Of a stretch of DNA of 64,000 nucleotides, positions 12,091 to 42,481 are shown piece after piece. This DNA is from Bradyrhizobium canariense (GTDB lineage: Bacteria > Pseudomonadota > Alphaproteobacteria > Rhizobiales > Xanthobacteraceae), in NCBI RefSeq assembly GCF_900105125.1, contig NZ_LT629750.1, positions 4,429,001-4,493,000 on the forward strand. Reading direction: 5' to 3'. The notes under the pieces were generated by a model. That model was given only the letters and a program-made list of their open reading frames with translations. It was not told where the DNA came from and did not search any database. The position numbers and the translations under genes were made by a program. The stretch's first letter is position 1. Each line of letters begins with the position of its first letter.

Positions 12091-12241
12091 GGTCAGTTAC
12101 TTTCAGTGCTGGCGAGGTTTGCGATCACATCGTTCACTCCGGGTTCAGGAGGAACGGGTGCGGTGTAGGTCGATTTCTGGATCGGCCCACGGAGCGTCCA
12201 TTTCGTTCGCGCCTCGCTAGGCGCGCATTGCCGATTCCACC

Positions 12242-29947: not shown

Positions 29948-30610
29948 CTAGCCCGCTGGAAGGCCAAGACGAATTGCGTAGGCTGTCAATTCTGCACCAC
30001 TGTGCAGATCAAGCTTCCGCATAAGATTCTCGCGATGCTTCCTGGCGGTAAGCGGGCTAATGCCGAGGCGGATGGCGATGTCGCGGCTGCTGGCACCGTG
30101 AGGGATCATCCCCAGGATTTGCCGCTCACGCCTCGTAAGCGTGACCGGAGACATTATCGCAGCCGTGGGCTCCGGGGTCCCGTTCGGGCCGTCATGCCGG
30201 TCCACCGCAAAGCGAACCTCCTCCGCGACATAGGCGTTGCCTTTTCTGATGGCATCGATTGCAGCGATGAGTTCGGATGGATCGCCGCCCTTGGTCAAAT
30301 AGCCATTTGCGCCCGCGGAAAAAGCTGCCCGGACGGAACGTGGGTCAACATTGGCGGTGAGGACAAGAACTCGTAGCTCCGGCCATTCGGTTCTCAGGTT
30401 CGCTATGAACTGAAACCCGCTCACACCCGGCATGCCGAGATCGAGTATGAGAAGATCGGCGGAACTTTCGTTCAGCAGCCGGTGAACGGCTTCACCGTCC
30501 GCCGCTTCTCCACTGACCGTAAGCTCGTCCACGGTCGACAGAAGCTGTTTGAGACCTTCCCGAATGATGGCGTGATCGTCAGCAATGATCGTTCGCACGA
30601 GTCCACACAT
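29948..30610 (-). CDS. LuxR/NarL family response regulator
   Basis: A 220-residue response regulator. The receiver domain has the acidic pair at residues 10-11 (IIADDHA), the phospho-acceptor Asp57 in LLILDLGMPG and the lysine in GYLTKGGDP. The C-terminal GerE helix-turn-helix reads LTRRERQILGMIPHGASSRD, followed by a second helix in LGISPLTARKHRENLMRKL. It is the first gene of the operon with the hybrid kinase. Operator-like site 3 lies 91 bases upstream, so the regulator may control its own operon as well as the transporter and leader-peptide units. Confidence 0.95.
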   Translation of the reverse strand: MCGLVRTIIADDHAIIREGLKQLLSTVDELTVSGEAADGEAVHRLLNESSADLLILDLGMPGVSGFQFIANLRTEWPELRVLVLTANVDPRSVRAAFSAGANGYLTKGGDPSELIAAIDAIRKGNAYVAEEVRFAVDRHDGPNGTPEPTAAIMSPVTLTRRERQILGMIPHGASSRDIAIRLGISPLTARKHRENLMRKLDLHSGAELTAYAIRLGLPAG

Positions 30611-30701
30611 GTATCGCCCCGGCCTATAACGTTGTTAGGATATCAATCAACTCCAATCAAGGATTTGGATCCACTAAACCATCAGCCAGATGATCTTGAT
30701 A

Positions 30702-30723
30702 CGAAATACGCCAACTGCCGTAT
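30702..30723 (+). promoter_or_regulatory. Operator-like 22-bp motif, site 3 (response-regulator promoter)
   Basis: The plus strand reads CGAAATACG-CCAA-CTGCCGTAT. Relative to its gene it has the opposite orientation to sites 1 and 2, as would suit a near-symmetric site. ATACG-N8-CGTAT is the inverted-repeat core. The 91-base distance to the response-regulator start is compatible with an activator or autoregulatory site. Confidence 0.65.
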
Positions 30724-31107
30724 TTTTACATGTGGTCGCCTAAGGTAAAATTTTGTGCTGGATGTCTGAATGCTCCGCTGCCGTGTTGCGCGGCTGGCGC
30801 CGAGTGAACGCTGACCCTGGTGGTCCACCGGCGGATTTGAATCTCTATGTGGCGGCTGACGCCCGCGTTCTGATTTTCCGTGAGCGGGCCCGTGACCACC
30901 TCGACACGGGTTATCTGTGCCAGCGAACGGTGACGACGACCGGCCCGATATTCGCAGCCTCTCCCACCTTGATAAACGAGACACAGCGCCGCCTTCGTTC
31001 GAAGGAGCACAATCGCGCAGATTGGTGTAGTACGCTGCGCGACGCGCGAGTGACCCAATGCACACCAAATTGCGACATCAATCGCCTGCGTACGCCTCAA
31101 ACGAGAT

Positions 31108-31202
31108 CGGTACTGCATTTGGTACTGCACGCTTCATTTGGCCGTCGCTAAGTGCTGATGATCCTTCACTTTTCCGGAGAGTCCGTCCAATCCATCATGG
31201 GT
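31108..31202 (+). repeat. Element-end repeat R1
   Basis: It starts with the short tandem CGGTACTGCATTTGGTACTGC and ends with TCCAATCCATCATGGG. The same start and end, with a diverged middle of the same length, occur at 40944-41040. Both copies lie a few hundred bases before a tRNA 3' fragment in the same orientation, which suggests they are the ends of related integrative elements. Confidence 0.65.
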
Positions 31203-31621
31203 GCAATGCAAAATCGATGCGCTAACATGTTGATGTTATTTCGCTTTATCGTCTCGTTTGGCGCAGTTGATTTTTGGGTCGACAGAAATCGCAGGCTGAC
31301 AGTTGAGGCATTTTCCTTTCAGTTCAAGTGCCTATCAGGAAGGCTTCTCACCCCTAGAACACGGCTCCCCTTCTCGGTACGGCGCCCAGTACCGGATGAG
31401 CTCCCGCAGTACCGTCTGGTTTGGACCCTCCTTACAGATCCGGTTCGCTTCGGCCGCAAAGTAACGCGCCGCTCTGGCCACGCCTAGCGTAGAACAAGTG
31501 CAGTCGTAGTTTTGGCGGCGATAGAGCAAGAAAACTTGGGGGCTGCGGTCCGCAAGTGGGCGCTTTCGTTACGAGAACCGCGGGCTGGCGAAAGCTTCGG
31601 CCAATATTGGGCCCGAAGAAT

Positions 31622-31665
31622 GAGCGTTGCCCGAAGGTCACACGTCGAATCGTGTCGGGCGCGCC
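31622..31665 (+). repeat. Degenerate tRNA-Arg 3' remnant
   Basis: The sequence GAGCGTTGCCCGAAGGTCAC followed by ACGTCGAATCGTGTCGGGCG reads as a tRNA-Arg 3' half from which about ten bases of the anticodon arm and one T-loop base are lost. It keeps the arm sequence AGGTCACACG that the other two copies have changed. It is the third tRNA-Arg fragment in the window in the same orientation. Confidence 0.65.
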
Positions 31666-31881
31666 CGTGCGCAGATAGAGTAATTCCTTTCTATCGAACT
31701 CTCTGGTCGGGGGTTCGAGTCACTGGAGCGCCGCCGCCTTTCACCAACCAAACCTACGACATCTCATCCAATCCCTCGCATGAGGCAGTTCGTGAGGGCC
31801 GCAGCGAGCTCGGCTCTTACGCTCTAAAAGACATACGTCGAAGGGCTACGAACCTTAGTATCGGGCGAAAGCCGCCGAGTT

Positions 31882-32133
31882 CTAAGCGCGCTCTGACGCC
31901 TTTCCCATTTGGGATACGCGAGCCTCGTAGATCAGTCGCGGCTCGGTTTGACTGGAGGAGACCCTACCCTTCTCAGACTGCGGGCTCGGTCCGGCCTGGA
32001 GCATTCCATCGTAGCGCACGGCTACTTCGGAATATGGAGAGGCGGCTGAGCGATCGAGCAATTCGCGGAGCTTCGGATGGAGACCCTCACCACGCGAGGC
32101 CGCAATCGCATTGAAATTGCCTAGAGACATCAT
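31882..32133 (-). CDS. Small orphan protein under an Ada-box promoter
   Basis: An 83-residue protein starting at one of two adjacent ATGs (32128-32133), preceded by GGGAG. I do not recognise a domain. Its first half (FNAIAASRGEGLHPKLRELL) resembles that of the 86-residue protein at 32812 (LYTFAAARGQFLRPGVQALL), so the two appear to be distant paralogs. The spacing from the Ada-like box (32193-32216) to the start is 59 bases, the same as for the DNA-repair genes of the island. The polar second half looks disordered. Function unknown. Confidence 0.55.
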   Translation of the reverse strand: MMSLGNFNAIAASRGEGLHPKLRELLDRSAASPYSEVAVRYDGMLQAGPSPQSEKGRVSSSQTEPRLIYEARVSQMGKASERA

Positions 32134-32192
32134 TCCTGCACTCCCGAGTCCTCTTACATGTCGGGTAGCTTGCATCGGCGGAGGTCGGTCGC

Positions 32193-32216
32193 CACTCCGG
32201 ATCTTGCTTTCAAATC
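32193..32216 (-). promoter_or_regulatory. Ada-box-like promoter element 1
   Basis: Minus strand: GAT-TTGAAA-GCAA, four bases, then CGGAGTG (last base of the element at 32193). The A-box/B-box arrangement AAT-N6-GCAA is the known binding site of methylated Ada in E. coli. It points at the gene at 31882-32133 from 59 bases. Confidence 0.7.
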
Positions 32217-32240
32217 TAAGTCGTCATTCGGAGCGGCTGG

Positions 32241-32264
32241 AGTTTGGAGCGAAGAAGCGGAGTG
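32241..32264 (+). promoter_or_regulatory. Ada-box-like promoter element 2 (weak)
   Basis: Plus strand: AGT-TTGGAG-CGAA, four bases, CGGAGTG. The B-box is imperfect, but the CGGAGTG part is complete and the distance to the ATG at 32312 is 47 bases. With element 1 it forms a divergent pair in a 178-base gap. Confidence 0.45.
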
Positions 32265-32311
32265 TCGGTACCACGCCGATGCGCTAGGTGCCCGAAAGGA
32301 AAGGGCGCACG

Positions 32312-32689
32312 ATGACAAACGAAATCGAGGTTGAGAGATTGATCAACTTCGAGACTGCGACCGATGGCACCGCGGTCAAGCTTGTCGTCTGCGACGTCGC
32401 GAACCGCAAGATCGGCATCATCCTGACGATCGAGACGCTGTCGGCGCTGCTGATGACACTGCCGGCGATCGCATCGAGCGCCGTCAAGCGTGCGCACAAC
32501 GATCCCAGCATGAGGATCACATATCCTCTCCGGGAATTTGAGATCGAGCTTGGTCCCGACAATCTTCGTATTCCGACGATCGGGACACCGGACGGATTCA
32601 CGGTCTCCTTCAGCCTCACCGAGGAACTCTCGCAAGAACTGGGCGAGGCACATCTCGAAGGCGGTGGACATCGCGCCAAAACGCACTAG
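32312..32689 (+). CDS. Hypothetical protein (125 residues)
   Basis: A 125-residue protein without a signal peptide or membrane segment. The sequence alternates beta-like and helical stretches (VKLVVCDVANRKIGIILTIE; FEIELGPDNLRIPTI; FTVSFSLTEELSQELG) and looks like a folded single domain. I do not recognise the family. The ATG at 32312 is preceded by AGGAAAGGG at slightly long spacing; an ATG 24 bases earlier is possible. A weak Ada-like box lies upstream, so it may belong to the alkylation regulon. Confidence 0.65.
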   Translation: MTNEIEVERLINFETATDGTAVKLVVCDVANRKIGIILTIETLSALLMTLPAIASSAVKRAHNDPSMRITYPLREFEIELGPDNLRIPTIGTPDGFTVSFSLTEELSQELGEAHLEGGGHRAKTH

Positions 32690-32732
32690 CCGTGAGGCTC
32701 CGCCCCCGCGAGTACGCCCTCAGCAAAACGCG

Positions 32733-32756
32733 AATATCAGAGCAAGGATCGGAGTG
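32733..32756 (+). promoter_or_regulatory. Ada-box-like promoter element 3
   Basis: Plus strand: AAT-ATCAGA-GCAA-GGAT-CGGAGTG, a perfect A-box and B-box. The gap to the ATG at 32812 is 55 bases. Confidence 0.75.
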
Positions 32757-32811
32757 CCGCGACCCTGACGCCATGCAAACTGGAAGCTCCTTGGCGGTAG
32801 GAGACCGCGAA

Positions 32812-33072
32812 ATGAGCTTTCCTCCCCTCAATCTCTACACGTTTGCGGCCGCGCGCGGGCAATTCTTGCGGCCGGGTGTCCAGGCCCTTCTCAAGAGCGC
32901 GTCGGTCGGCCTTTATTTCGATTTCGCCAATCCACATGCCCCCGTTTTGCGCCGAGAGGCCGCAGCTCTCCGGAAGCAACTGGATGCCCTGCTCTTTGGC
33001 GAGCCATCGCGCCCGGCCCAGACCGAACGCCCCGCCCTGACGATCGTTCGCCGGCGTCGTAGCATCGCTTGA
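32812..33072 (+). CDS. Small orphan protein under an Ada-box promoter
   Basis: An 86-residue protein whose ATG follows TAGGAGA. The N-terminal part (NLYTFAAARGQFLRPGVQAL) resembles the 83-residue protein at 31882; the rest has a helical, arginine-rich end. No known domain. A minus-strand frame overlaps it completely, but the ribosome site, the paralogy and the Ada-like box 55 bases upstream all favour this strand. Function unknown. Confidence 0.55.
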   Translation: MSFPPLNLYTFAAARGQFLRPGVQALLKSASVGLYFDFANPHAPVLRREAAALRKQLDALLFGEPSRPAQTERPALTIVRRRRSIA

Positions 33073-33328
33073 CGTTCGCTTACCCGCCAAGAGGGATGCA
33101 ATCGCGAGTGTCGCCAGAAGTCGCCAAGCCGGCGCGACATTACGCGGTAAAGCGCTTGCAGTGCGGCGATCGCTTATAGCTCGCTTGTGCATCAAACTGA
33201 ACGAGATCAAGGAGTCCCGGATCTGGCCGGTGATGCGCGCTGTACTCGATTTCCGCTACCGCGAGCCGCGGTCGTGAACCACTTCGTCAGCAACCCTGGC
33301 AGCCGGGGCAGACCTCGAGATCGATTAG
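33073..33328. other. Intergenic stretch
   Basis: Between two small plus-strand genes. A minus-strand frame enters from the right with a signal-peptide-like start but overlaps the better supported gene at 32812. I see no other structure. Confidence 0.35.
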
Positions 33329-33352
33329 AATTCGAAAGCAAGAAACGGAGTG
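33329..33352 (+). promoter_or_regulatory. Ada-box-like promoter element 4
   Basis: Plus strand: AAT-TCGAAA-GCAA-GAAA-CGGAGTG, an exact match to AAT-N6-GCAA. The gap to the ATG at 33411 is 58 bases. Confidence 0.75.
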
Positions 33353-33410
33353 TCGAAACCTTGGCCCACGCCCAGTCTTCGCCTGATCACCTAACGATCA
33401 GGAAGCTCAC

Positions 33411-33773
33411 ATGAGCGACATTCGTGCTGCCAGAAGTGATGTCGAGGAACTCGCTCACCGGCGCGGGCTCGCGGCTGCCCGTCGATCGAGGAATACCGAG
33501 CGGGAAGCTCTGCTGCAAAAGCTCATCGAAACCGAGCGGAAAGCGCTTGAGTTGCGCGGGTGGGTTGCGCAATGGGAGATGAACGGAGAGGCAGCCTCAC
33601 CGGAAATTCGACGCCTGATAAAGTGGGCGAGAGAAACCCTGTTGGACATGGAACGCTTCCTCCTGCCCACGGAACTTACAAAGCTATTGGAGACACGCGA
33701 TCTGTTTCCCGACGTCGATGATCTTGCGGATCCGCTGGGCGATCCGCCACCGCTTCGTCCGTGGGGTCGCTGA
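33411..33773 (+). CDS. Hypothetical helical protein under an Ada-box promoter
   Basis: A 120-residue, highly charged protein that should be mostly alpha-helical (SRNTEREALLQKLIETERKA; IRRLIKWARETLLDMERFLL). There is no signal peptide, membrane segment or known domain. The ATG follows CAGGAAG. It is transcribed toward the methyltransferase gene at 33867. The exact Ada-box upstream makes it a likely regulon member of unknown role. Confidence 0.65.
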   Translation: MSDIRAARSDVEELAHRRGLAAARRSRNTEREALLQKLIETERKALELRGWVAQWEMNGEAASPEIRRLIKWARETLLDMERFLLPTELTKLLETRDLFPDVDDLADPLGDPPPLRPWGR

Positions 33774-33866
33774 CGGGAAATAACGGCAATGGAAGACCGG
33801 CTATGCCGGTGGCAGGGTCGGATCACTGCCGGTTGCCGGCCTGCAAAGATAGACTCGAATGACTTT

Positions 33867-34394
33867 TCATCCATCTCCCTCCGAAGTCGGGAGAGGTTTG
33901 GCCCGTTGCTCGCGCGCCAGCAGTTCGCGCTTGCGCTTGACGCCCCAGCGATAGCCCGAGATCGATCCGTCCTTCTTGATGACACGATGGCATGGCACAA
34001 GCACGGCGATCGGGTTGGAAGCGATTGCCTTGGTCACGTCTCGGGCGTCGCGCGTACCGAGTTTGGCCGCGAACGCGCCGTAGCTGATCGTCTCGCCGAC
34101 GGGTAGCACGCGCAGCATCGACCAGACCTCGATCTCGTAAGCCGTTCCACGCATATCGAGCGGGAGTTCCGGATTGAACCTCGGCTCTTCGATGACGCGC
34201 GTGATCTTGTCGAGAATATCGATCAGTTCAAGCTGTCTGCTGACGACTTCAGCGCCCGGGAAACGGATTCGCAGCGCCTCTTCCACCAAGTCACGACCCG
34301 AGCCGAGCTCTAAGGCCACGAGGCCCTTATCCGACATCGCCACCATGAACTCGCCGAGAGAACTATTCCCCCAGGCGAAACGGATTACCTCGCG
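33867..34394 (-). CDS. ogt: Methylated-DNA--protein-cysteine methyltransferase (Ogt paralog 1)
   Basis: A 175-residue suicide enzyme that removes alkyl groups from O6-alkylguanine in DNA. The acceptor is Cys136 in the signature VPCHRVI. The N-terminal ribonuclease-like domain (RFAWGNSSLGEFMVAMSDKG) and the DNA-binding helix region (LPVGETISYGAFAAKLG) are present. The open frame extends upstream to 34586, but I chose the ATG at 34392-34394 because it follows AAGGAG and because this start puts the Ada-like box (34452-34475) at 57 bases, the spacing seen for other genes. It is the first of three methyltransferases within 5 kb. Its surface closely resembles the C-terminal part of Ada. Confidence 0.9.
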   Translation of the reverse strand, partial: REVIRFAWGNSSLGEFMVAMSDKGLVALELGSGRDLVEEALRIRFPGAEVVSRQLELIDILDKITRVIEEPRFNPELPLDMRGTAYEIEVWSMLRVLPVGETISYGAFAAKLGTRDARDVTKAIASNPIAVLVPCHRVIKKDGSISGYRWGVKRKRELLAREQRAKPLPTSEGDG

Positions 34395-34451
34395 CATCTT
34401 TCGCTCCTTCGCATCGTCTGTACCGAAGATACGAAGTGACATCGGCGGAGC

Positions 34452-34475
34452 CGATCCGATCCTTGCTTTCAAATC
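34452..34475 (-). promoter_or_regulatory. Ada-box-like promoter element 5
   Basis: Minus strand: GAT-TTGAAA-GCAA-GGAT-CGGATCG. It differs from the consensus only in the last bases. It lies 57 bases before the chosen start of Ogt paralog 1. Confidence 0.75.
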
Positions 34476-34603
34476 GGAAAGAAGCGAAGCCGACCGACAG
34501 TAAACTTCGAAGCGAACGCAAATGGCGGCGCCGCTCGAGCCGAGCGTCGTCGCCAACGCGTCTTTGTATCGATCCAGCGAGACCACTGCCGATGCGGGCT
34601 TCG

Positions 34604-35086
34604 CTACCTCCGAGAGGAATCGCCTCTAATAGAAGAGAAGTCGATCACCTGCGCAGTTTCTGTCGCCGTCGAGCCGCGTGGCGAATTGCTCTCCGGAGGC
34701 GGCATGAACTGCCGCTCCATTGCGCGCCGACCCGTCGGATCTTGCTCCTCGAAGGTCTCGATGTCCGTAATTTCGATGGCGATGATCGGATCGCCGACAC
34801 TGGCGGCGGGCGGGCCGCTCGTGAGGGGCTGCAAGACCAGGCTCGGATGATCCGGACTTCGCAGCGCGATATTTTGCAGCCTCTTGAGGGGCGAGCGCAA
34901 GTGGGCCCAGTGGTTTACCAGGAGCGACCAGTGATGGCCGTCCTTCAGTACGCCGTTGAGGAGACCGTTTGACAGCGGGTCGTGGGAGAAGACGCCCAAG
35001 CTGCTCGCGATATCGATCGCGTAGGCTCCCTTGGGCAACAGCACTAAGAGCCCAATCTTTCCATCGGCCATTCTGACGAGTTTCAT
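34604..35086 (-). CDS. Hypothetical protein (160 residues)
   Basis: The frame opens at 35197, but the protein-like part starts at the ATG 35084-35086 (MKLVRMADGKIGLLVLLPKG). The first 40 residues vaguely recall the N-terminal domain of fumarylacetoacetate-hydrolase-type proteins; the rest does not, and the C-terminal 60 residues look disordered. No catalytic motif is visible. It lies 117 bases after the oxygenase gene on the same strand and has no clear Ada-like box of its own, so it may be read from the ogt/oxygenase promoter. Confidence 0.5.
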   Translation of the reverse strand: MKLVRMADGKIGLLVLLPKGAYAIDIASSLGVFSHDPLSNGLLNGVLKDGHHWSLLVNHWAHLRSPLKRLQNIALRSPDHPSLVLQPLTSGPPAASVGDPIIAIEITDIETFEEQDPTGRRAMERQFMPPPESNSPRGSTATETAQVIDFSSIRGDSSRR

Positions 35087-35203
35087 GACGTTCACCGTTC
35101 GAAAAGAGAATTGCCTCTCCGCGCATGAGTCATGAGGAGCCTGCGGTCGGGTTGACAGGTCGTTGAATCTGGAGCGGGGCGACGGCGCGCCGCCCAAGCT
35201 TTG

Positions 35204-35953
35204 CTATTTCGCGTCGTGAAAGATGATGCCGACGGTATGACGCATGCCGGAGCGCAAGCGGCTGACGCCGTGCCGGAGGTTCACGCGGTAATTGCCCTTC
35301 GTCCCTCGCACCGGTCGGTTATGAACCGCGAAGGCCACCGCATCACCCTGTCGAAGCGGGACGACCTCGGCGCGACTTTGCATCCGCGGCCGTTGTTCTG
35401 TCAGGACAAACTCTCCGCCGGTGAAATCAGCGCCGGGCTCCGAGAGAAGGATCGCGACCTGAACTGGAAAGAAAAGATCGCCATAGAGGTCCTGATGCAG
35501 ACAGTTGAAGTCGCCGGGCACGTACTGCAGCAACAGCGGCGTCGGCCGCGCCTGGCCGGCCTCATGGCATTGCTTCAGAAACGAAGCGTGCTCGACGGGA
35601 TACCGCTCGTCGATTGCCATGCGATCGTTCCACTCGTTGGCGACGTCCACGAGGCCCGGATAGAGCGCCGTGCGCAAGCCGCCGAGTAGGTCGGGCAGCG
35701 GATACTTGAAGTAGCGGTACTCGCCTTTGCCGAAGCCATGCCGCGCCATGTGGACGTGGCTGCGAAAATGCTCCTCCTCGGAATAAAGGCTCGAGATGGC
35801 GCGACACTCGACGGGCGACAGGAGCTTCGGCAGGACGGCACAGCCGAAGCCGTCGAGATCCTGCGCGAGCACCTGCCAGTCGTAGGCCGCGACCCGGGCT
35901 TCCGCGGGCACGCCCGCGAAAGCCGTCGTGACGATGGAAGTGTTCGGCCTCAT
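35204..35953 (-). CDS. 2OG-Fe(II) oxygenase, AlkB-like alkylation-repair candidate
   Basis: A 249-residue dioxygenase. The iron ligands fit the HxD...H pattern: His153 and Asp155 in NCLHQDLYGDLFFP and His228 in NLRHGVSRLRSGMR, with Arg238 ten residues later to hold 2-oxoglutarate. Position next to a methyltransferase suggests oxidative dealkylation of DNA or RNA bases, although the sequence is not a classical AlkB and resembles the prolyl-hydroxylase-like branch. The ATG at 35951-35953 overlaps the stop of Ogt paralog 2 by four bases, so the two are translationally coupled. Function as a repair enzyme is inferred from context. Confidence 0.85.
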   Translation of the reverse strand: MRPNTSIVTTAFAGVPAEARVAAYDWQVLAQDLDGFGCAVLPKLLSPVECRAISSLYSEEEHFRSHVHMARHGFGKGEYRYFKYPLPDLLGGLRTALYPGLVDVANEWNDRMAIDERYPVEHASFLKQCHEAGQARPTPLLLQYVPGDFNCLHQDLYGDLFFPVQVAILLSEPGADFTGGEFVLTEQRPRMQSRAEVVPLRQGDAVAFAVHNRPVRGTKGNYRVNLRHGVSRLRSGMRHTVGIIFHDAK

Positions 35954-36525
35954 GCCAGCGCCTCCTTCTCGATCAAGTCGCGCTTGCGCTCGATGCCCCA
36001 ACGGTAGCCTGCGAGCTCGCCATCCGTGCGGATGACGCGGTGGCAAGGAACGGCGAGCGCGATCATATTGGCGGCGCAAGCGTTCGCCACCACGCGAGCG
36101 GCGACCTTCGGATAGACGTTGTTGATCAACCGAGCCAGGTGCATGTAGCTCATCGTATTGCCCACGGGGATCGCACAGATCTGCCGCCAGATCCGGCGCT
36201 GAAGCGGCGTCCCGCGCATGTCGAGCGCGAGGTCGAGTCCCTCGGAGGGCTTTTCCGCGTAGCGGACCACCTTCGCCAGGTCGTCGCGGACCATGACCTC
36301 GTTCGCGACGAGAGTGGCTTCGGGAAAACGACCCGCGAGGTCCGCTTCCAGCTCGCCGGCGTCGTCGCCGAGCAGGATCGCGCAGACGCCCTTGGCGCTG
36401 CGGGCGAGCAGAACCTTGCCCAACGCGCTGTCACCGACCCCGAAGAGGAGGACGTCGGTCGCCGTGTTGGCGGGCTCGGCCGCGGGTAGCAGCCGCAAGG
36501 CGGCTTCGGATGTCATGAGGTTCAT
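35950..36525 (-). CDS. ogt: Methylated-DNA--protein-cysteine methyltransferase (Ogt paralog 2)
   Basis: A 191-residue methyltransferase with the acceptor Cys161 in AVPCHRVIRTDGELAGYRWG. The helix-turn-helix side has AIPVGNTMSYMHLARLINNV, and the N-terminal half-domain has GKVLLARSAKGVCAILLGDD, which is nearly the same as in Ada ([10 protein letters not shown]). The start follows AAGGAGTG. It is the first gene of a coupled pair with the oxygenase. Ada-like element 6 lies 56 bases upstream. Confidence 0.92.
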   Translation of the reverse strand: MNLMTSEAALRLLPAAEPANTATDVLLFGVGDSALGKVLLARSAKGVCAILLGDDAGELEADLAGRFPEATLVANEVMVRDDLAKVVRYAEKPSEGLDLALDMRGTPLQRRIWRQICAIPVGNTMSYMHLARLINNVYPKVAARVVANACAANMIALAVPCHRVIRTDGELAGYRWGIERKRDLIEKEALA

Positions 36526-36581
36526 GGTGTCACTCCTTCGTTGTCCTCATGATCGAAGCTACGCGCACGCGCTCTTACCCA

Positions 36582-36605
36582 AACTCCGATGTTTGCTTTC
36601 AAACC
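36582..36605 (-). promoter_or_regulatory. Ada-box-like promoter element 6
   Basis: Minus strand: GGT-TTGAAA-GCAA-ACAT-CGGAGTT. The gap to the ATG of Ogt paralog 2 is 56 bases. Confidence 0.7.
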
Positions 36606-36635
36606 GAGAAAATCTCCGAAGACCTTCCGCGCGAA

Positions 36636-36675
36636 TCAAACGCGGCCGGACGCGATGGCATCCGGCCGCGTTTGA
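36636..36675 (-). terminator. 15-bp perfect hairpin after the 83-residue gene
   Basis: TCAAACGCGGCCGGA and its exact reverse complement are separated by ten bases. The hairpin starts 21 bases after the stop of the minus-strand gene at 36697-36948 and just before promoter element 6. It lacks a long T-tract, so it may stop transcription only partly, or protect the 3' end. Confidence 0.55.
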
Positions 36676-36696
36676 CGGCCTAAAGGTCCGGTAAAG

Positions 36697-36948
36697 TCAC
36701 GCGAAGCGCGTGACGGTCGTCTTCCTGAGAAGGTAGGTTTCGCCGGAGCTGAGACAGAGCCGGATGGTTCCGTCATCGAGCGTCTGCCACTCGGCCAGTC
36801 CGTCGGCGACTAGCCCCCGGAAATGAGCCATGACGCGAGCCTTGTCGGAATCTGCCTCGACGCCATCTACGAGCGCGGCGGGCCTCGCCTGGGCGCGAAC
36901 ACGTTTCCCGTGTCTTTTCTTCGCCTTCAATGCGCGCCATGCCGTCAT
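36697..36948 (-). CDS. Small hypothetical protein (83 residues)
   Basis: An 83-residue protein with a strongly basic start (MTAWRALKAKKRHGKRVRAQ) and a C-terminal beta-rich stretch (LDDGTIRLCLSSGETYLLRK). No domain recognised. A poor Ada-like element (37068-37092; GAT-TTTGAC-GACA... CGGAGTG) lies 119 bases upstream, further than for the other genes. It is followed by the 15-bp hairpin. Confidence 0.5.
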   Translation of the reverse strand: MTAWRALKAKKRHGKRVRAQARPAALVDGVEADSDKARVMAHFRGLVADGLAEWQTLDDGTIRLCLSSGETYLLRKTTVTRFA

Positions 36949-37099
36949 GATCGGAGCAGGTTCCTTGCGCCCGTCGATTCGCGGGGGCGATCAACAGCGA
37001 CTTCGGTACCGACGCCCGCCCGGATCACCGCGATCCATATCCTAGTAGCCGCGAGAGAGCGACCCGACACTCCGATTAATGTCGTCAAAATCCATGGAA

Positions 37100-37783
37100 T
37101 TACCCGGTTTGCGTCCCCCGCTCGACCAGCGCGAAGCGCAAGCGATTCCAAATGGTGATGACCGGCCCAAGGCAGAGCGCCGGCACGACGAGCCACGCGC
37201 CTTCGGGAAGCCGGCCACACGCGGCGATCGCTATCGCGACAAGCGCGAGCACGATCGATCGATCTACTTTTCCAAGCGGGCCTTCGAGCCGGCGGGTGCC
37301 GCTCAGCATCGTCCCGGCCACACCGACGAACTCGGACATGGCCGCAAAGCAGACGACCAACGCAATCGAGGCGCCCGAAAACGGAGGAACAAACGCAAGC
37401 GGCGAGAAGAGAGCGATATCCGAAACGACATCGCCTACCTCGTTCAAGACGCCGCCGAGGCGGCTCTTTTGCCCGAATTCGATGGCGAGCGTTCCATCGA
37501 CGGCCGCGAATGCGGTACGCGCCACGAGCCAGGCCGGAAGCATCGCGAACAACGAGGAATAGTCCGCAAAGCGGCAAAGGAGCGCGCCAACCAGGACGGA
37601 GCCGATGAGGGACGTCGACGTTACTTGATTGGCGGTGACGCCCGCTTCGTACAGACGGCCGGCGATGGGCCGCAACGCCCTTCGAAGCAGAGGCTTCAGC
37701 AGGGTTAGCGAGGTTGCCGCGAGGAACGCGTAGCGCGGTCCGGCGCGTGAAACCTCTCGGGACGCGCATGGCGAACTCGTCAT
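37100..37783 (-). CDS. CDP-alcohol phosphatidyltransferase family membrane protein (YnjF-like)
   Basis: A 227-residue membrane protein with about six helices. The family signature region is AAVDGTLAIEFGQKSRLGGV followed by LNEVGDVVSD (Asp118, Asp122). The first aspartate of the classical D-x2-D-G motif is replaced by alanine, and the AR pair is AI; this looks like the YnjF branch rather than PgsA or Pss. It would transfer a phospho-alcohol from CDP-alcohol or CDP-diacylglycerol at the inner membrane. The ATG at 37781-37783 lies 28 bases after the ada stop, so it is read from the ada promoter. A link between alkylation damage and this lipid chemistry is unexpected. Confidence 0.85.
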   Translation of the reverse strand: MTSSPCASREVSRAGPRYAFLAATSLTLLKPLLRRALRPIAGRLYEAGVTANQVTSTSLIGSVLVGALLCRFADYSSLFAMLPAWLVARTAFAAVDGTLAIEFGQKSRLGGVLNEVGDVVSDIALFSPLAFVPPFSGASIALVVCFAAMSEFVGVAGTMLSGTRRLEGPLGKVDRSIVLALVAIAIAACGRLPEGAWLVVPALCLGPVITIWNRLRFALVERGTQTG

Positions 37784-37811
37784 CGGGGCTCGGGGTCGTT
37801 TGCGGCGCGGT

Positions 37812-38903
37812 TCAGCTGGCTTGCGAGGCTTCCCTGTCCAACAGGGCGCGCTTGCGTTCCACTCCCCAGGCATATCCGGATGCCGACCCGTCGTTGCGGA
37901 TCACGCGGTGGCACGGAATGGCGACCGCGAGCTTGTTCGCCGCACAAGCGCCGGCGACCGCGCGCACCGCTTTGGGAGCCCCGATCCGCCGCGCGAGATC
38001 GGCATAGGAGACCGTCGCGCCGACGGGAATTTCCTGAAGCGCCTGCCAGACCCGCTGCTGGAACGCAGTGCCGCGAATGTCGAGCGGCAGATCGAGACCG
38101 ATCTCCGGCGCTTCCACGAAGCCGACCACCCGCGCGACCATCGCCTCATAGTCACGGTCGGCGCCGATCAGACGCGCCTTGGGGAAGCGATCCTGAAGGT
38201 CGTGGACGAGCTCCTCCGCGTCGTCCCCGAGAAGGATAGCGGCGACGCCCTTCTTGCTCGATGCGACCAGAATGGCGCCGAGAGAAGTTTGACCGACCGC
38301 GAACCTGATCTCCTCGTTCGCCCCTCCGGCGCGATACTGCGATGGCGTCATGCCGAGCATGTCGGTCGATTTCTCATAGAACCGCCCGCTCGAATTGAAG
38401 CCGGCGTCGTACATCGCCTCGGTGACGGAATTGCCGGAAACCAGACCTTCGCGGACCTTCTTGGCACGGTGCGCGGCGGCATAGCTCTTCGGCGTGAGTC
38501 CAGTTGCGGCCTTGAACATGCGATGAAAGTAGCCAGAGCTCATGCCAACTGCCTCAGCCAGATCCTCCAGAGAAGGCTCCTCCTCGCTCGTCTCGATGAT
38601 GCGGCACGCCTTGGCGACCGAGGTGGCATTCTCGGCTTCGACAGAGGGCCCGTCCGGATTGCAACGCCTGCAGGGGCGAAAGCCCGTCGCCTTGGCGCTT
38701 GCCAGGCTGTCGTGAAGCTGTACGTTTGTCGGGTTTGCCGTCCGCGAGGGGCACGACGGACGACAATAGACCCCCGTCGTCGAAACCGAATACCAGAAGT
38801 GACCATCGGCCGTCTTGTCGCGCGCGAGGACGCGGGCCCATCGAGGATCATCCGCGACCGGTAGGGGCATCTGTTTCCGGAATTGAACGAGCGCTGCGGT
38901 CAT
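37812..38903 (-). CDS. ada: Ada: bifunctional methyltransferase and transcriptional activator
   Basis: A 363-residue Ada with all parts. The N-terminal zinc domain has Cys47, Cys51, Cys78 and Cys81 ([15 protein letters not shown]); Cys47 corresponds to the residue that takes methyl from phosphotriesters and switches on DNA binding. An AraC-type helix-turn-helix follows at about 100-190 ([20 protein letters not shown]). The C-terminal methyltransferase has Cys331 in [12 protein letters not shown]. The ATG at 38901-38903 follows GGAGA; the frame upstream of it is non-family sequence that includes the promoter. Element 7 lies 53 bases upstream, consistent with autoregulation. It is the presumed regulator of all Ada-box genes in this island. 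Confidence 0.95.
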
Positions 38904-38956
38904 CGGTTTCCAGTCTCCACGATACCAGAGACGTTGCCACCCGATTTCCGAGGGCG

Positions 38957-38980
38957 CACTCCGGTCCTTGCCTTCAAATC
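38957..38980 (-). promoter_or_regulatory. Ada-box-like promoter element 7 (ada)
   Basis: Minus strand: GAT-TTGAAG-GCAA-GGAC-CGGAGTG. The gap to the ada start is 53 bases. In E. coli, methylated Ada activates its own promoter from such a box. Confidence 0.8.
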
Positions 38981-39252
38981 GAAGGCGCCGGCGACGATTC
39001 AGGTCGCGGGCCGAGAACGACGCGTCGCCGAGTCGTTCCAAGCGGCGCGTCTCGGCGAGGCGATGCGTGTGGCGGCCCCCCCGACACGCGTTCCCCTCCT
39101 CGCTGGCGGATACGAACGACATCGGCGCGCTTGGTGGCGCTAATCGCGCGGATCTTGCTCAGAAAAGCCCATGAACGGCGGCTTCGGACAGGCGCGTCCA
39201 CTCCCAATGCTGACATGGCGAGTGTCCTCCTTTGCTGGGGTTGGCGAGCCGC
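38981..39252. other. Intergenic stretch upstream of ada
   Basis: Only the ada promoter element at the left edge is recognisable. Frames on both strands lack domains. Confidence 0.4.
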
Positions 39253-39717
39253 TCAGGCCGCGCGCTCAAGATCGGGGCCACTGGACGAATGGCCGGCCAG
39301 AGCGTCGATGTTCTGCAGGGTGCGACGAAGCGCACTGCTCGACGTGGAAAGCGTGTAGGGAAAGTAGACGACCTCGACGCCGAGCGCCGCGAAGTCGCGC
39401 TCGAGCTTGTTGCCCTTTTCGGTACCCTGCCAGTCGTTTCCCTTGAACAGAACATTGAAGCGAAGATCCTTCCAGATGCCGACCTTGTCGTTCGTCAGCG
39501 CCGGGACCGCGGCGTCGACGAAACGAACGTTGCGGACGATCTCGACCCGTTCGGCGAGGGGAATCACCGGCGCCACCCCCTTGTGCCGGATCAGCACTTC
39601 GTCTGCCACGACGCCAGCGATCAGATATTCGCAGTGCTCCCTGGCGCGACGGAGCAAATTGAGATGGCCGATGTGAAAGAGATCGTATGCGCCCGGCGCG
39701 TAACCAATGCGGATCAT
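39253..39717 (-). CDS. Cytidylyltransferase-like protein (TagD/glycerol-3-phosphate cytidylyltransferase type)
   Basis: A 154-residue nucleotidyltransferase. The HxGH motif is FHIGHLNLL (His15, His18), the middle motif is KGNDW (92-96) and the C-terminal motif is STSSSALRR (124-132), in the usual order for CTP:phosphoalcohol cytidylyltransferases. It would make a CDP-alcohol such as CDP-glycerol or an ADP/CDP-linked sugar. It has its own promoter region with a weak Ada-like box and is shielded from the upstream gene by a strong terminator. A CDP-alcohol enzyme here and a CDP-alcohol phosphotransferase behind ada may work in one pathway; this is inference. Confidence 0.85.
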   Translation of the reverse strand: MIRIGYAPGAYDLFHIGHLNLLRRAREHCEYLIAGVVADEVLIRHKGVAPVIPLAERVEIVRNVRFVDAAVPALTNDKVGIWKDLRFNVLFKGNDWQGTEKGNKLERDFAALGVEVVYFPYTLSTSSSALRRTLQNIDALAGHSSSGPDLERAA

Positions 39718-39782
39718 GTGAGTGGTCCTGTTCTTATCGGGACTTCAGCGCGGCAGACGCTACCGTGACGATGGCAGCGGCA

Positions 39783-39806
39783 CGCTCCGCTTCCTGCGAT
39801 GCAATC
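39783..39806 (-). promoter_or_regulatory. Ada-box-like promoter element 8 (weak)
   Basis: Minus strand: GAT-TGCATC-GCAG-GAAG-CGGAGCG, 16 of 24 positions as in the consensus. It lies 65 bases before the cytidylyltransferase start. Confidence 0.5.
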
Positions 39807-39852
39807 CAACATCGCTCGCCGAGATGCTCGTTGCGGCCGGTCCAAAAGCAGA

Positions 39853-39879
39853 CGAGGCTCGCACAACGTGCGAGCCTCG
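39853..39879 (-). terminator. Rho-independent terminator after the SnoaL-like gene
   Basis: A perfect 12-bp stem (CGAGGCTCGCAC with GTGCGAGCCTCG) and a three-base loop. On the minus strand it is followed by TCTGCTTTT. It lies 42 bases after the stop of the gene at 39922-40374. Confidence 0.85.
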
Positions 39880-39921
39880 CTCAAAGACATCGGATGTACC
39901 GATGGTGAGGATGCGTTCCGA

Positions 39922-40374
39922 TCAGGCCGCCGCCTTGAGCAACCCGAGCTGGGTCAGCGCGGTGACGCCGTCATCGAGACCGATCTCCTCGACGATCTTG
40001 CCGTTGACGACCTTGAGCACCGTCGTGCCCGTGAAGTGCATCTTGCGGCCAGTCGCAGCCGGAAGGCTGCCGATCAGGAAATCGTTGAATGCCGGGCCTG
40101 TGTGAGTACCGCCGCCTTCCCATTGACCGACGACATAGTCGCCCTCGGCGATCAGATCCGCGGTGCCCCAGAAGTTCAGATCGGGAAACGCGGCGCGGAA
40201 GTCGGTCATGAACGCCTTGATGTCGGCGCGGCCGCGCCGGGGCTCATGCAGCGAATATTTCAGCAGCATTTCGGGGGCCGCGATCTCGTCGATGACACCA
40301 AGATTGACGGTCTTGCCCCAGAATTCCGTGAACCAACGACCAACGACGGCCTTGTTATCATCTTGTTTGCTCAT
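39922..40374 (-). CDS. SnoaL/ester-cyclase-like protein of the NTF2 fold
   Basis: A 150-residue protein of the SnoaL-like polyketide-cyclase/ester-cyclase family. Family-like segments are VGRWFTEFWGKTVNLGVIDE, RGRADIKAFMTDFRAAFPDL and VVGQWEGGGTHTGPAFNDF. Members are small cone-shaped barrels with varied, mostly unknown roles. The ATG at 40372-40374 follows AAAGGTG; the frame upstream of it contains the promoter. Element 9 lies 79 bases upstream and a strong terminator follows, so it is a single-gene transcription unit, probably of the Ada regulon. Confidence 0.85.
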   Translation of the reverse strand: MSKQDDNKAVVGRWFTEFWGKTVNLGVIDEIAAPEMLLKYSLHEPRRGRADIKAFMTDFRAAFPDLNFWGTADLIAEGDYVVGQWEGGGTHTGPAFNDFLIGSLPAATGRKMHFTGTTVLKVVNGKIVEEIGLDDGVTALTQLGLLKAAA

Positions 40375-40453
40375 TGAAAGACACCTTTGTTTTGCAGGAA
40401 CTACAGATCGACTGGCGATCGCTGCAATCACTAGGCATCGTCCCCCCGAGCAG

Positions 40454-40477
40454 AACTCCGGTTCTTGTCTTGAAATT
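40454..40477 (-). promoter_or_regulatory. Ada-box-like promoter element 9
   Basis: Minus strand: AAT-TTCAAG-ACAA-GAAC-CGGAGTT. The A-box is exact, the B-box has one change. The gap to the SnoaL-like gene is 79 bases, longer than for the others. Confidence 0.65.
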
Positions 40478-40943
40478 GAAAGAAGCGGCTTCACGCGGTC
40501 CGTCGAACCGCCGACGGCCGCTCGGCAGTAAAGCGATCTCTGGATCACTTGCCTCTCGTCCCTGGTAGATTACGATGTTGCCTAACGAGCAGACTTTCTC
40601 GCCATCTGAACGACCATTGATGCCGCGCGTGGCGATGTGGCCGAGCGGGGGGGGGCCGCAAGCATTCCATAACCGCTCATTCCACGAAATCTAACGCGCT
40701 GTTAGACGCTGCCATCAGGCGCGCAAAATCGCGAAAAATCGTAGTTTGGCATAGAAGTTAGTGGGATGGCGTAGCGGGATTCCGCTACCAACCCACGCCG
40801 GCTGAGCCCGCAACGTCTCTGTCAATCTTGAGGATGAAGTTGCGACAAGCGTATGAGGGCCGGAGATGAAATCGCGCGCTCTGCAGCCGCCGAGCGCAGC
40901 AGGAAGCCGAATTTTGTTCGCTACATGGCACTCATCAATGGAG
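40478..40943. other. Non-coding stretch at the right end of the alkylation island
   Basis: No gene is supported. A run of ten G residues occurs near 40650. A minus-strand frame (40715-40966) has no domain and starts inside repeat R2. Confidence 0.4.
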
Positions 40944-41040
40944 CGGTACTGCGTTTGGTACTGCACGGCGAGCGACGACCGCTCTTAAGTACTGATTGTA
41001 CTTTTGCTTTTTGAGATGTCCCGGTCCAATCCATCATGGG
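40944..41040 (+). repeat. Element-end repeat R2
   Basis: Partner of 31108-31202: CGGTACTGCGTTTGGTACTGC at the left end and TCCAATCCATCATGGG at the right end, with a diverged middle. It lies 180 bases before a tRNA 3' fragment. Confidence 0.65.
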
Positions 41041-41221
41041 ACCGACTCACACCCCCGACATGCAGTCCTCCGAACGGTCGGTGCTAGCCGCGTGAAACGG
41101 CTCCGCCCCGAGGTTCGCTAACCGCACCAGTTTCGCACCAGAAACAACCTCGACAAAGCACAACGAACGCAATCGAAATCAAACAAAACCGTATTAAAAA
41201 CAACAAAGCTGATCGATATTC

Positions 41222-41271
41222 TGTCGCTCATAACGGTCTGATTGCAGGTTCGAATCCTGCCGAGCGCACCA
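41222..41271 (+). repeat. 3' remnant of a tRNA with anticodon CAT, putative attachment site
   Basis: The loop CTCATAA (anticodon CAT: tRNA-Met or lysidine-type tRNA-Ile2), a perfect T-arm (GCAGG-TTCGAAT-CCTGC) and an acceptor strand CGAGCGC-ACCA are visible. No matching 5' acceptor strand (GCGCTCG) lies upstream, and the anticodon stem is imperfect. I read it as the end of the alkylation island, where it was inserted into a tRNA gene. Confidence 0.65.
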
Positions 41272-41485
41272 GTGAAATCAGTGGGTTATTAGCCGCTGTT
41301 TTCTCGCGGGCCCGATCGCCGCACCGGAAACTCTCGCCGGTTCCCAAGCATCGACTTGCTTCAACAGCAAACAAGCTGCGGCTTCACTTCAAACTGGACG
41401 AGACCTTTCGCCCATTGATCGTAGGACAGGCAAGTCTATCGTACAAAAAGGTGTCCATCAGCCGGCGCATCGACCGCTTCCGGCG

Positions 41486-42481
41486 CTAACCCGATGAGCC
41501 ATCGGCGGGTCGAGCCTCGTTGCCGTCGGCCTGCCCCACGAAGGTGCGACGCTCCATGGCCGGCGCCACCATGCCGGGTATACTCGCATCGGACACGAGC
41601 AGGCGGCAATGTTGTGCGAAGGCGTCGAGCAGGAGCGACTTGCGGCGCTGCGCCAATGTCAGCACGCCGATCACCATCGGCCTGTGATCGCCGGACAAGC
41701 GAATCCGCGAGACGCGTCGTCCGTCCAGCGCGAGCTCGCAACGCGGGCGAACGTTCGCGAGCGTGTAGCCGTAGCCATTGGCTACCATCGTCCGGATCAC
41801 GTCCTGATGCGTCGATCGCGCCGCGATGTTGGGCTCGATCCCCTCCTTGAGGAACATGCTGAGGAAATATTCGCGGCTGATCGGCAGGTCCAGAAGGATC
41901 AGCGGCTCGCGCGCCAGTTCCTTAAGGCTGACGGCGGAATGACGCGCCAAGGACCCCCCCTCGCTGACGACGACGTGCGGCGGCAGGCTCGCCAACGGCA
42001 GAAATTCGAACTCGTCGGGAATCAGCAGGTCATATGTGATCGCAACGTCGAGCTCGGCATTCAGCAGGCGCTCCAGAAGCTGCTCATGGTCGGCGACCGT
42101 CTGTATGATGCGTGTCTCCGGATAGGACGACGTGAACGAATGCGAAAGCTCCGGCATCACCATTGGCGCAAGCGTGATGAAACACCCCAGCGACAGTTGC
42201 CCGCGGACCCGCTCTCCGACCTCGCTGGCGACCGAATAGATGTACTCGGCCTGCTCGACCAGCCGCTTCGCCTCGACCAGCAGGAGCCGCCCAGCCGAAG
42301 TGAGCGAAAGTCCTTGCGCATGGCGGCGGACGAAAAGCTGGGTTCCGAGCTCCTCCTCCAGATGCGCGATCGCCGTCGAGATCGAAGGTTGCGATATGTT
42401 AACTCGCTCGGACGCCAGAGTGATACTTCCGGTCTCGGCTGTCGCAATGAAATATTCGATCTGGCGTAGCGTGTATCGCAT
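41486..42481 (-). CDS. LysR family transcriptional regulator
   Basis: A 331-residue LysR-type regulator. The N-terminal helix-turn-helix is clear (FIATAETGSITLASERVNIS, then ISTAIAHLEEELGTQLFVRR). A periplasmic-binding-protein-like effector half follows; the C-terminal 30 residues are extra to the normal 300. It is the last gene of a minus-strand group with DUF1028, RidA and class II aldolase genes and probably regulates them or the divergent transporter. Confidence 0.9.
   Translation of the reverse strand: MRYTLRQIEYFIATAETGSITLASERVNISQPSISTAIAHLEEELGTQLFVRRHAQGLSLTSAGRLLLVEAKRLVEQAEYIYSVASEVGERVRGQLSLGCFITLAPMVMPELSHSFTSSYPETRIIQTVADHEQLLERLLNAELDVAITYDLLIPDEFEFLPLASLPPHVVVSEGGSLARHSAVSLKELAREPLILLDLPISREYFLSMFLKEGIEPNIAARSTHQDVIRTMVANGYGYTLANVRPRCELALDGRRVSRIRLSGDHRPMVIGVLTLAQRRKSLLLDAFAQHCRLLVSDASIPGMVAPAMERRTFVGQADGNEARPADGSSG

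Follow-up and report, generated by a model that had tools for sequence, protein, structure and literature searches.

On a 9.9 kb mobile block within a 64,000-nucleotide stretch of the Bradyrhizobium canariense chromosome (G000:C1:4429001-4493000; hereafter the window, whose own numbering is used for its features), ten promoter sites of one common design stand before the genes of what appears to be an acquired Ada regulon. As read from the sequence, each site has an A-box (RAT), then, after six bases, a B-box (GCAA or near) and, after another four, an X-box (CGGAG) that merges into a weak -35 element; a -10 element follows at a fixed spacing. With good confidence, we take the ten sites to be promoters that are switched on by the island's own Ada once it is methylated, and the genes behind them to form one alkylation-response regulon on the mobile block. 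The island Ada would take a methyl group from DNA and then activate the ten promoters, and the regulon would comprise ada, two ogt genes, a PF09859 oxygenase gene, SnoaL-like and cytidylyltransferase-like genes and several small conserved proteins, all carried on the block. The original prediction for this stretch, made from the letters alone, had proposed a horizontally acquired, self-contained Ada regulon with nine such promoters; its central idea, one Ada-type regulon with a common promoter, is supported by the sequence, and the view that the island was acquired and bears an Ada regulon has good support at the same level.

The three-box promoter

Scans with the literal consensus were too weak to judge the claim: CGGAGTG alone occurs at chance in the window (14 found, 11.7 expected), and the whole pattern with up to three mismatches is weakly enriched (17 versus 12.8 expected). 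A better test was therefore needed, and a first matrix of 24 positions was trained on 40 ada promoters from outside the Bradyrhizobium/Xanthobacteraceae group. For this purpose 52 of 85 scanned loci had been selected manually because they clearly matched a seed derived from the seven strong sites of the window; some near-duplicates had been dropped, and the 40 outside the group were used. The first matrix found 11 matches of at least 10 bits in the window, versus 0.18 on average when 100 block-shuffled windows were scanned; the seven strong sites ranked 1-7, a match at 12233 was eighth, and the sites at 32241, 39783 and 37068 took ranks 9-11. As the seed came from the window, this test was partly circular, and it was therefore repeated without a seed on 54 ada upstream regions from outside the Bradyrhizobium group. 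The commonest spaced pair of 4-base words there was CAAG-N4-GGAG, present in 31 of the 54, while the best pair reached at most 7 in 20 shuffled sets. The matrix built from this pair again placed the seven strong sites at ranks 1-7 in the 64 kb window (20.4-37.5 bits), with 32241 eighth, 37068 ninth, 12233 tenth and 39783 eleventh. The match at 12233 (17.6 bits) was judged to be due to chance: the best match in 100 shuffled windows likewise reached 17.6 bits, no open reading frame of at least 80 amino acids starts downstream on its strand up to 12700, and it overlaps the 3' end of an open reading frame on the opposite strand.

The expected enrichment in the island was borne out by a scan of the whole genome (7,841,944 bases, one contig, G000) with model R2, which was built from 81 foreign sites out of 97 candidate sites. 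Nine of its ten matches at an expect value (E) of 1 or below lie in the island, with values from 1.3e-6 to 0.41, and the single match outside has an E of 0.91. The pattern GAAAGCAANNNNCGGAGTG with up to two mismatches occurs 19 times in the genome, versus 3 times for the reversed pattern; the island holds all four of the copies that differ at no more than one base, and two of the 15 others. Across 80 named ada loci (1.48 Mb), 216 sites of at least 12 bits were counted versus 2 in the reversed sequence, with an all-loci matrix that was derived from 46 of the sites it then counts.

The nine motifs of the original prediction are present at their coordinates and on their strands, and their distances to the start codon (59, 47, 55, 58, 54, 56, 53, 65 and 79 nucleotides (nt), in order of position) agree with those it gave. 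In the following, bit scores are those of the foreign, seed-picked first matrix unless stated otherwise. On the minus strand, the box at 32193..32216 (37.9 bits; 59 nt to the ATG at 32133; rank 3 without a seed) precedes a small open reading frame, hyp97 (31882-32133 from an inner ATG). Three boxes on the plus strand precede the genes at 32312-32689 (weak box 32241..32264; 13.3 bits, 47 nt to ATG), 32812-33072 (32733..32756; 29.2 bits, 55 nt) and 33411-33773 (33329..33352; 37.4 bits, 58 nt). The remaining boxes are all on the minus strand. That at 34452..34475 (27.3 bits, 54 nt) precedes the ogt gene 33867-34397, that at 36582..36605 (26.7 bits, 56 nt) an apparent operon of ogt, oxygenase and a 160 amino acid protein (36525 down to 34604), that at 38957..38980 (36.2 bits, 53 nt) ada and a following CDP-alcohol phosphatidyltransferase-like gene, the weak one at 39783..39806 (12.1 bits, 65 nt) the cytidylyltransferase-like gene 39253-39717, and that at 40454..40477 (28.8 bits, 79 nt) the SnoaL-like gene 39922-40374. 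A tenth, weak site, absent from the earlier list, lies at 37068..37091 (10.9 bits, 119 nt to ATG) before the gene 36697-36948 of an 83 amino acid family; it is not among the R2 matches at E of 1 or below in the whole genome, and it was accepted because it is conserved in G024 and G004 (the 60-genome set of G000 and its relatives is labelled G, and loci are labelled L) and ranks ninth without a seed.

The three sites at 32241, 37068 and 39783 are weak alone but are better preserved in relatives or recur before the same family. With the all-loci matrix, the 32241 site scores 14.0 bits in the window and 22.0 at the same place in G002, and counterparts of the 37068 site before the same gene score 19.1 bits in G024 and 23.8 in G004, the window site falling below 12; sites of 18-21 bits precede the same cytidylyltransferase-like family in four other loci. 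The strong site at 36582 likewise has counterparts of 37.1 bits in G002 and 37.4 in G004, with the same gene downstream. In G026, two strong boxes (L186 and L187; 40.0 and 32.0 bits) lie distal to ada and share an identical 30 bases downstream, with no clear gene behind them as judged by eye. An ogt pair at 2.96 Mb (L185) has no A-B-X site of at least 10 bits.

The motif end had been called an invariant CGGAGTG, which overstates its constancy: the site at 34452 has CGGATCG, those at 36582 and 40454 have CGGAGTT, and that at 39783 has CGGAGCG. CGG stands four bases past the B-box in all seven strong sites; GCAA is found in six of these, the B-box at 40454 being ACAA, and RAT-N6-GCAA is present in most sites with G or A as its first base. 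The idea of CGGAGTG as a fixed second part of the promoter holds and can be sharpened, as it is best read as a Cada2-type X-box merging into the -35 element and followed by the fixed-spaced -10 element. The latter (Y-A-N-N-N-T) begins 21 nt past CGGAGTG; given a 17-base spacer, the GTG that ends CGGAGTG falls in a poor -35 element. Among 213 nonredundant sites of the named loci, chosen without regard to this region, A is found at position 22 after CGGAGTG in 85% and T at position 26 in 60%, with A in only 7-24% at the remaining positions 1-33. The window sites have A at 22 in all ten, a pyrimidine at 21 in nine and T at 26 in six. The A-box half is as conserved as the remainder of the motif, with A in 88%, T in 96% and T in 93% of the 40 promoters at positions 2-4.

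The island Ada and competing explanations

The prediction of a complete Ada is supported by the sequence. The ada gene (37812..38903, minus strand) encodes a full-length protein with the Zn domain (PF02805, E 1.4e-28), AraC-type helix-turn-helices (PF12833) and the O6-methylguanine methyltransferase domain (PF01035). Its methyl-acceptor residues Cys47 and Cys331 align with Cys38 and Cys321 of Escherichia coli Ada, and its Zn-domain cysteines (Cys47, 51, 78 and 81) all align with those of the E. coli protein. In passages of PMC3788762, R45 and R71 of E. coli Ada are assigned to the A-box. The B-box contacts of the E. coli protein are F114, H115 and R118. By alignment, the two A-box contacts correspond to R54 and R80 of the island Ada, and R118 is retained as R128. 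The E. coli residues conserved in the island Ada are C38, C42, R45, C69, R71, C72, C321 and R118.

Cada2 of Caulobacter, which is without the Zn domain, is described as recognising GCAA plus an X-box CGG and as requiring the arginine of its RLHD motif (PMC10957082). Arg174 of the island Ada lies in the column of this arginine: the second helix-turn-helix reads GRFYE in the island Ada, GRLHD in Cada2-type proteins and SSYYR in E. coli, so that the arginine is present and LHD is replaced by FYE. The island Ada is not classed as Cada2 because it has the Zn domain PF02805. We suggest that the Zn domain would contact the A-box, and that the B-box would be read by the first helix-turn-helix and the X-box, via Arg174, by the second.

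The relation between arginine and X-box was surveyed in 155 loci: 80 named ones, 70 from a draw across the phylum in which 82 genomes had a match, and those of E. coli and four relatives. The Ada proteins of 149 loci could be aligned, and the arginine was found in 130 of these 149 full-length proteins. Sites were located by the A+B half only, at 13 bits or more, with a half-matrix from the named loci. CGG stood exactly 3 nt after GCAAG in 64 of the 76 distinct arginine-type sites versus 1 of 8 non-arginine sites (Fisher p 8e-5); when only the phylum draw was counted, leaving out the window's genome and keeping duplicates, the figures were 19 of 21 versus 1 of 9. Some of the closest relatives of E. 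coli Ada have CGG at least 1 base further downstream. Seven Ada proteins read TRALY, with the arginine one residue earlier; in five of them CGG is found 3 nt further on, the B-box being degraded in most cases.

Several observations weigh against the proposal that the island Ada reads all three boxes and controls the ten promoters. The B-box contacts F114 and H115 of E. coli are replaced by Gly124 and Tyr125 even though GCAA is conserved, and the first base of the A-box is more often G (64%) than A, unlike the E. coli AAT. Of the 149 ada upstream regions searched with the A+B half, 59 had no site at the cut-off (a further 6 were duplicates), and 12 arginine-type sites do not have CGG at the exact position. 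Few lineages contribute the non-arginine cases, and the link between arginine and X-box is therefore suggestive rather than independently replicated, resting on few independent lineages. The distribution of the R2 matches across the 60 genomes speaks for the proposal, as those better than E 0.005 are restricted to the six genomes whose Ada is at least 63% identical (G000, G002, G004, G024, G026 and G039) and are absent from the other 54; the limit, however, was chosen post hoc after the list was seen, the best value among the other 54 being 0.009. Finally, G043 and G058 have a distant (34%) full-length Ada match yet no strong site.

Three other explanations were weighed. The first, which we regard as improbable, is that a resident Cada2-type regulator controls the island genes and that the A-box is incidental. 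The genome does encode a Cada2-type protein with RLHD (G000:C1:5366836-5367666), and GCAA plus CGG is what Cada2 reads in Caulobacter (PMC10957082); however, the conservation of the A-box half described above argues against an incidental A-box, and an RLHD protein is encoded by at least 21 of the 54 relatives in which no strong A-B-X site occurs. Moreover, Cada2-type promoters in the same genus (same-genus genomes being taken to be Bradyrhizobium) carry a different box, CGGAAATCGGGTGG with up to two mismatches, at 17 of 17 loci, compared with 1 of 5 outside the genus. Somewhat less probable still is that the motif serves an alternative sigma factor as its promoter, or is bound by a different regulator that merely has ada among its targets. 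The fixed -35/-10-like spacing would fit this, as would the weak sites, which retain CGGAG and the -10 element while their Ada half is poor. However, the upstream half is similar to AAT-N6-GCAA, the consensus of E. coli Ada, the motif and a close Ada co-occur across genomes, ada itself is a frequent target (60 of 81 occurrences in the 80 loci, all occurrences being counted and a site being required within 170 nt upstream), and no sigma-factor Pfam match was found in the 13 island proteins scanned at E of 0.01 or below. The least probable is that the boxes are real and the island is silent or decaying, with an Ada that has no working transcription control, as has been reported for Brucella; the ada genes of Brucella abortus are reported not to be induced by methyl methanesulfonate (PMC6813329) and the site at 34452 has a damaged X-box end, but the boxes are conserved across most of the 80 loci and E. 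coli Asp107, which adjoins the acidic position 106 (PMC6813329), corresponds to Glu117 in the island Ada.

The second box and the resident Cada2-type regulator

While the reading of the ten sites as promoters of the island's own Ada is retained, the regulon does not appear to be self-contained, as had been proposed. The ada promoter additionally holds CGGAAATCGGGTGG (38937..38950, minus strand), likely a resident Cada2-type box. It is one of four exact copies in the genome (G000:C1:2656354, 4467937, 5367751 and 7298182; L276-L279), which precede a PF09859 oxygenase homologue, the island ada, the Cada2-type gene and a SnoaL paralogue. Among 12 copies with one mismatch, one lies before a gene whose product looks by eye like an AlkA-type glycosylase, and another before a hyp97 homologue.

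The exact 14-mer is present in all 36 same-genus genomes, with 115 copies versus 1 for the reversed pattern. For the 73 copies examined, the next gene encodes the oxygenase in 21 cases, an EamA-like transporter (by eye) in 14, a Cada2-type protein in 13, an SRPBCC-like protein (by eye) in 9, a SnoaL-like protein in 3, a flavin-reductase-like protein (by eye) in 2, hyp97 in 2, Ada in 1 and others in 7; one copy has no gene in reach. The -10 element of these promoters has the same geometry as that of the A-B-X sites (A at 22 in 78%, T at 26 in 53%). Because of its autoregulatory position and its targets, we assign CGGAAATCGGGTGG to the genus's Cada2-type protein, and its copies likely form a Cada2 regulon. 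The distance from CGGAAATCGGGTGG to ATG is 32-33 nt in at least 12 of the 21 oxygenase copies and 33 nt in at least 10 of the 14 that belong to the Cada2/ada group. For the oxygenase and Cada2-type genes, a box-to-ATG distance of about 33 nt with a -10 element at 20-26 suggests leaderless mRNAs.

CGGAAATCGGGTGG with up to two mismatches was found in 14 of 17 ada promoters of the Bradyrhizobium group, in 9 of 66 others and in none of 1660 shuffled upstream regions. In 12 of the 14 box-bearing promoters of the group it lies 32-34 nt before ATG. Eight of the 17 have no A-B-X box of at least 10 bits, and seven of these eight have CGGAAATCGGGTGG with 0-1 mismatch at 32-34 nt before ATG. These observations suggest that the acquired regulon may be wired to the host's own response through the Cada2-type box in the ada promoter. 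At the window's ada the -10 element expected from CGGAAATCGGGTGG is poor (G at 22), and activation of ada by Cada2 is therefore put forward as a hypothesis. In six loci (L085, L106, L083, L079, L080 and L098), CGGAAATCGGGTGG with 0-2 mismatches lies 9-11 bases upstream of the A-box of ada, and the spacing looks fixed. Cross-regulation in genomes holding both regulators is mentioned in PMC10957082. In Bradyrhizobium diazoefficiens, Bll0687 is described as an AraC domain plus a methyltransferase (PMC8585493), which fits the Cada2 type.

Seven SnoaL homologues from genomes with no close Ada, or located elsewhere in Ada genomes, have no A-B-X site, and all seven have CGGAAATCGGGTGG upstream with 0-2 mismatches. 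Two SnoaL paralogues, L271 (G010) and L273 (G004), lie about 0.8 kb from an AdaA-like gene, in which only the Zn and helix-turn-helix part of Ada was matched; this neighbour constitutes a third link between SnoaL and Ada-type regulators.

We lean slightly towards a joint reading of the two systems, in which the three-box switch would be usual for full-length Ada in Proteobacteria and the two-box form of E. coli the exception, Ada (through A-B-X) and Cada2 (through CGGAAATCGGGTGG) would have independently recruited the PF09859 oxygenase, SnoaL-like, flavin-reductase-like and hyp97 families, and in Bradyrhizobium Cada2 would switch on the acquired ada in a cascade. If this is true, the doubly recruited families may make up a core of the alkylation response that has so far gone unnoticed, perhaps as enzymes that break down the alkylating compound itself. 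The SnoaL-like family, in particular, recurs behind both kinds of box, in 36 of 38 occurrences near ada and in the seven elsewhere.

The genes of the block, its mobility and known Ada systems

The predicted enzymes were confirmed: two Ogt-type methyltransferases (33867..34397 and 35950..36525, both PF01035) and a 2OG-Fe(II) oxygenase, which is Pfam PF09859 (35217..35953; E 5e-85 for 35207-35953), all on the minus strand. The same strand encodes the 160 amino acid conserved protein (34604..35086; no Pfam or NCBIfam match), the CDP-alcohol phosphatidyltransferase-like protein (37100..37783; PF01066 at E 0.003, below Pfam's cut-off), whose gene has no box of its own, the cytidylyltransferase-like protein (39253..39717; PF01467) and the SnoaL-like protein (39922..40374; PF07366, E 1.8e-28). 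NCBIfam gave no name to any small protein among the 10 scanned, and no homologue of the 120 amino acid protein (33411-33773) was reported in the 80 ada loci. The predicted structure of the SnoaL-like protein (predicted local distance difference test (pLDDT) 92.9) has the SnoaL/ketosteroid isomerase fold; a fold search with it singled out no substrate, with limonene-epoxide hydrolases among the lower matches. At the sequence level, genes without a known repair role do stand behind the same boxes, as had been predicted.

Across the 80 loci, the window's nine sites of at least 12 bits included, the genes directly behind sites were those of Ada/Ogt (104 sites in 65 loci) and of a SnoaL/hyp97 cluster (40 sites in 36 loci), followed by the PF09859 oxygenase (8), the 83 amino acid family (8), flavin-reductase-like (7), the 160 amino acid family (6), and cytidylyltransferase-like, ChaC-like and an unnamed 102 amino acid family (5 each); smaller groups include AlkB-like, short-chain dehydrogenase, DJ-1/PfpI and TMEM175. 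Counted by occurrence, the box-bearing share was 36/38 for SnoaL, 29/31 for Ogt2, 14/23 for Ogt1, 5/10 for the 160 amino acid family (box directly before), 4/7 for cytidylyltransferase, 6/45 for the oxygenase, 5/20 for the 83 amino acid family, 3/3 each for hyp97 and a 125 amino acid family, 1/2 for an 86 amino acid family and 0/2 for the CDP-alcohol transferase, in addition to the share of Ada given above. The low share of the oxygenase may be accounted for by a position inside operons, as in the window. The recurrence of these families points to candidate new members of the alkylation response, the SnoaL-like family first.

Horizontal acquisition is supported by the comparison with G024. The block (31149..41040) is 98.3% identical in this other species, versus a background of 81-82% in the Cada2-type region and 83-84% in the window's right flank, which in G024 lies about 0.37 Mb away from the block. 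The G024 flanks of the block (6.0 and 4.1 kb) have no match in the window beyond a 69-base end repeat. The block ends in imperfect direct repeats (31105..31201 and 40941..41040, plus strand; 72.5% identity, E 2e-7), and those of G024 are longer (71% over 306 columns). The block had also been placed between tRNA fragments. ARAGORN found no tRNA in the window, and noise only at a relaxed threshold, but one fragment stands: 31634..31665 (plus strand) matches the 3' end of a tRNA-Arg(CCG) gene located elsewhere in the genome (93.9% over 33 columns to L262, in which ARAGORN places the tRNA-Arg at 1500-1576). Pfam scans of 13 island proteins revealed no mobility gene, the remaining proteins of the window not being scanned for one; Rfam gave three matches in 30600-41500, all below the gathering scores, and base composition (G + C content 57-65%) does not clearly mark off the island. 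Beside the right end of the block, a short repeat at 41114-41338 has several partial copies of 73-95% in this genome and in G024. Taken together, these features would mark the block as carrying a damage-response regulon that passes from one species to another and shows signs of being tied into the regulatory network of the recipient.

Among known systems, the E. coli Ada regulon shares with the island a full-length Ada with the same domain order and methyl-acceptor cysteines, as well as an A-box AAT-N6-B-box GCAA, the two boxes that E. coli Ada recognises (PMC10957082). It consists of ada, alkB, alkA and aidB (PMC6505713). However, CGG is absent from its X position (GCAAGATTGTTGG), and E. coli Ada has a serine where the island Ada has the arginine of its second helix-turn-helix. 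To our knowledge, the E. coli list includes no SnoaL, cytidylyltransferase or 83 amino acid member. A search of the open-licence literature in PubMed Central (PMC) found no paper joining SnoaL with the Ada regulon or with methyl methanesulfonate; among the matches listed there, judged by titles and the starts of abstracts, only PMC10957082 uses Cada2 in the present sense. The Ada regulon of Pseudomonas putida also has Ada boxes of AAT/ATT plus GCAA, while the passages of PMC3788762 that describe it mention neither an X-box nor an island. The Caulobacter Cada2 response resembles the island in GCAA plus CGG, in the arginine of the second helix-turn-helix and in having an AlkB-like oxygenase and methyltransferases as targets, but its regulator is without the Zn/A-box domain and its promoters are described as having no A-box (PMC10957082).

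In the published picture, features of the E. coli kind accompany E. coli-like proteins, and features of the Cada2 kind accompany Cada2-like proteins (PMC10957082, Kamat et al. 2024). As far as these passages and the present sequences go, the island breaks this pairing, with one full-length Ada and promoters that hold A, B and X. This would amend, in a testable way, the view that Ada switches fall into two classes (A+B or B+X), with Arg174 as the predicted reader of the X-box. What would be new relative to known Ada regulons is thus the three-box architecture, together with a second regulon interlocked with the first.

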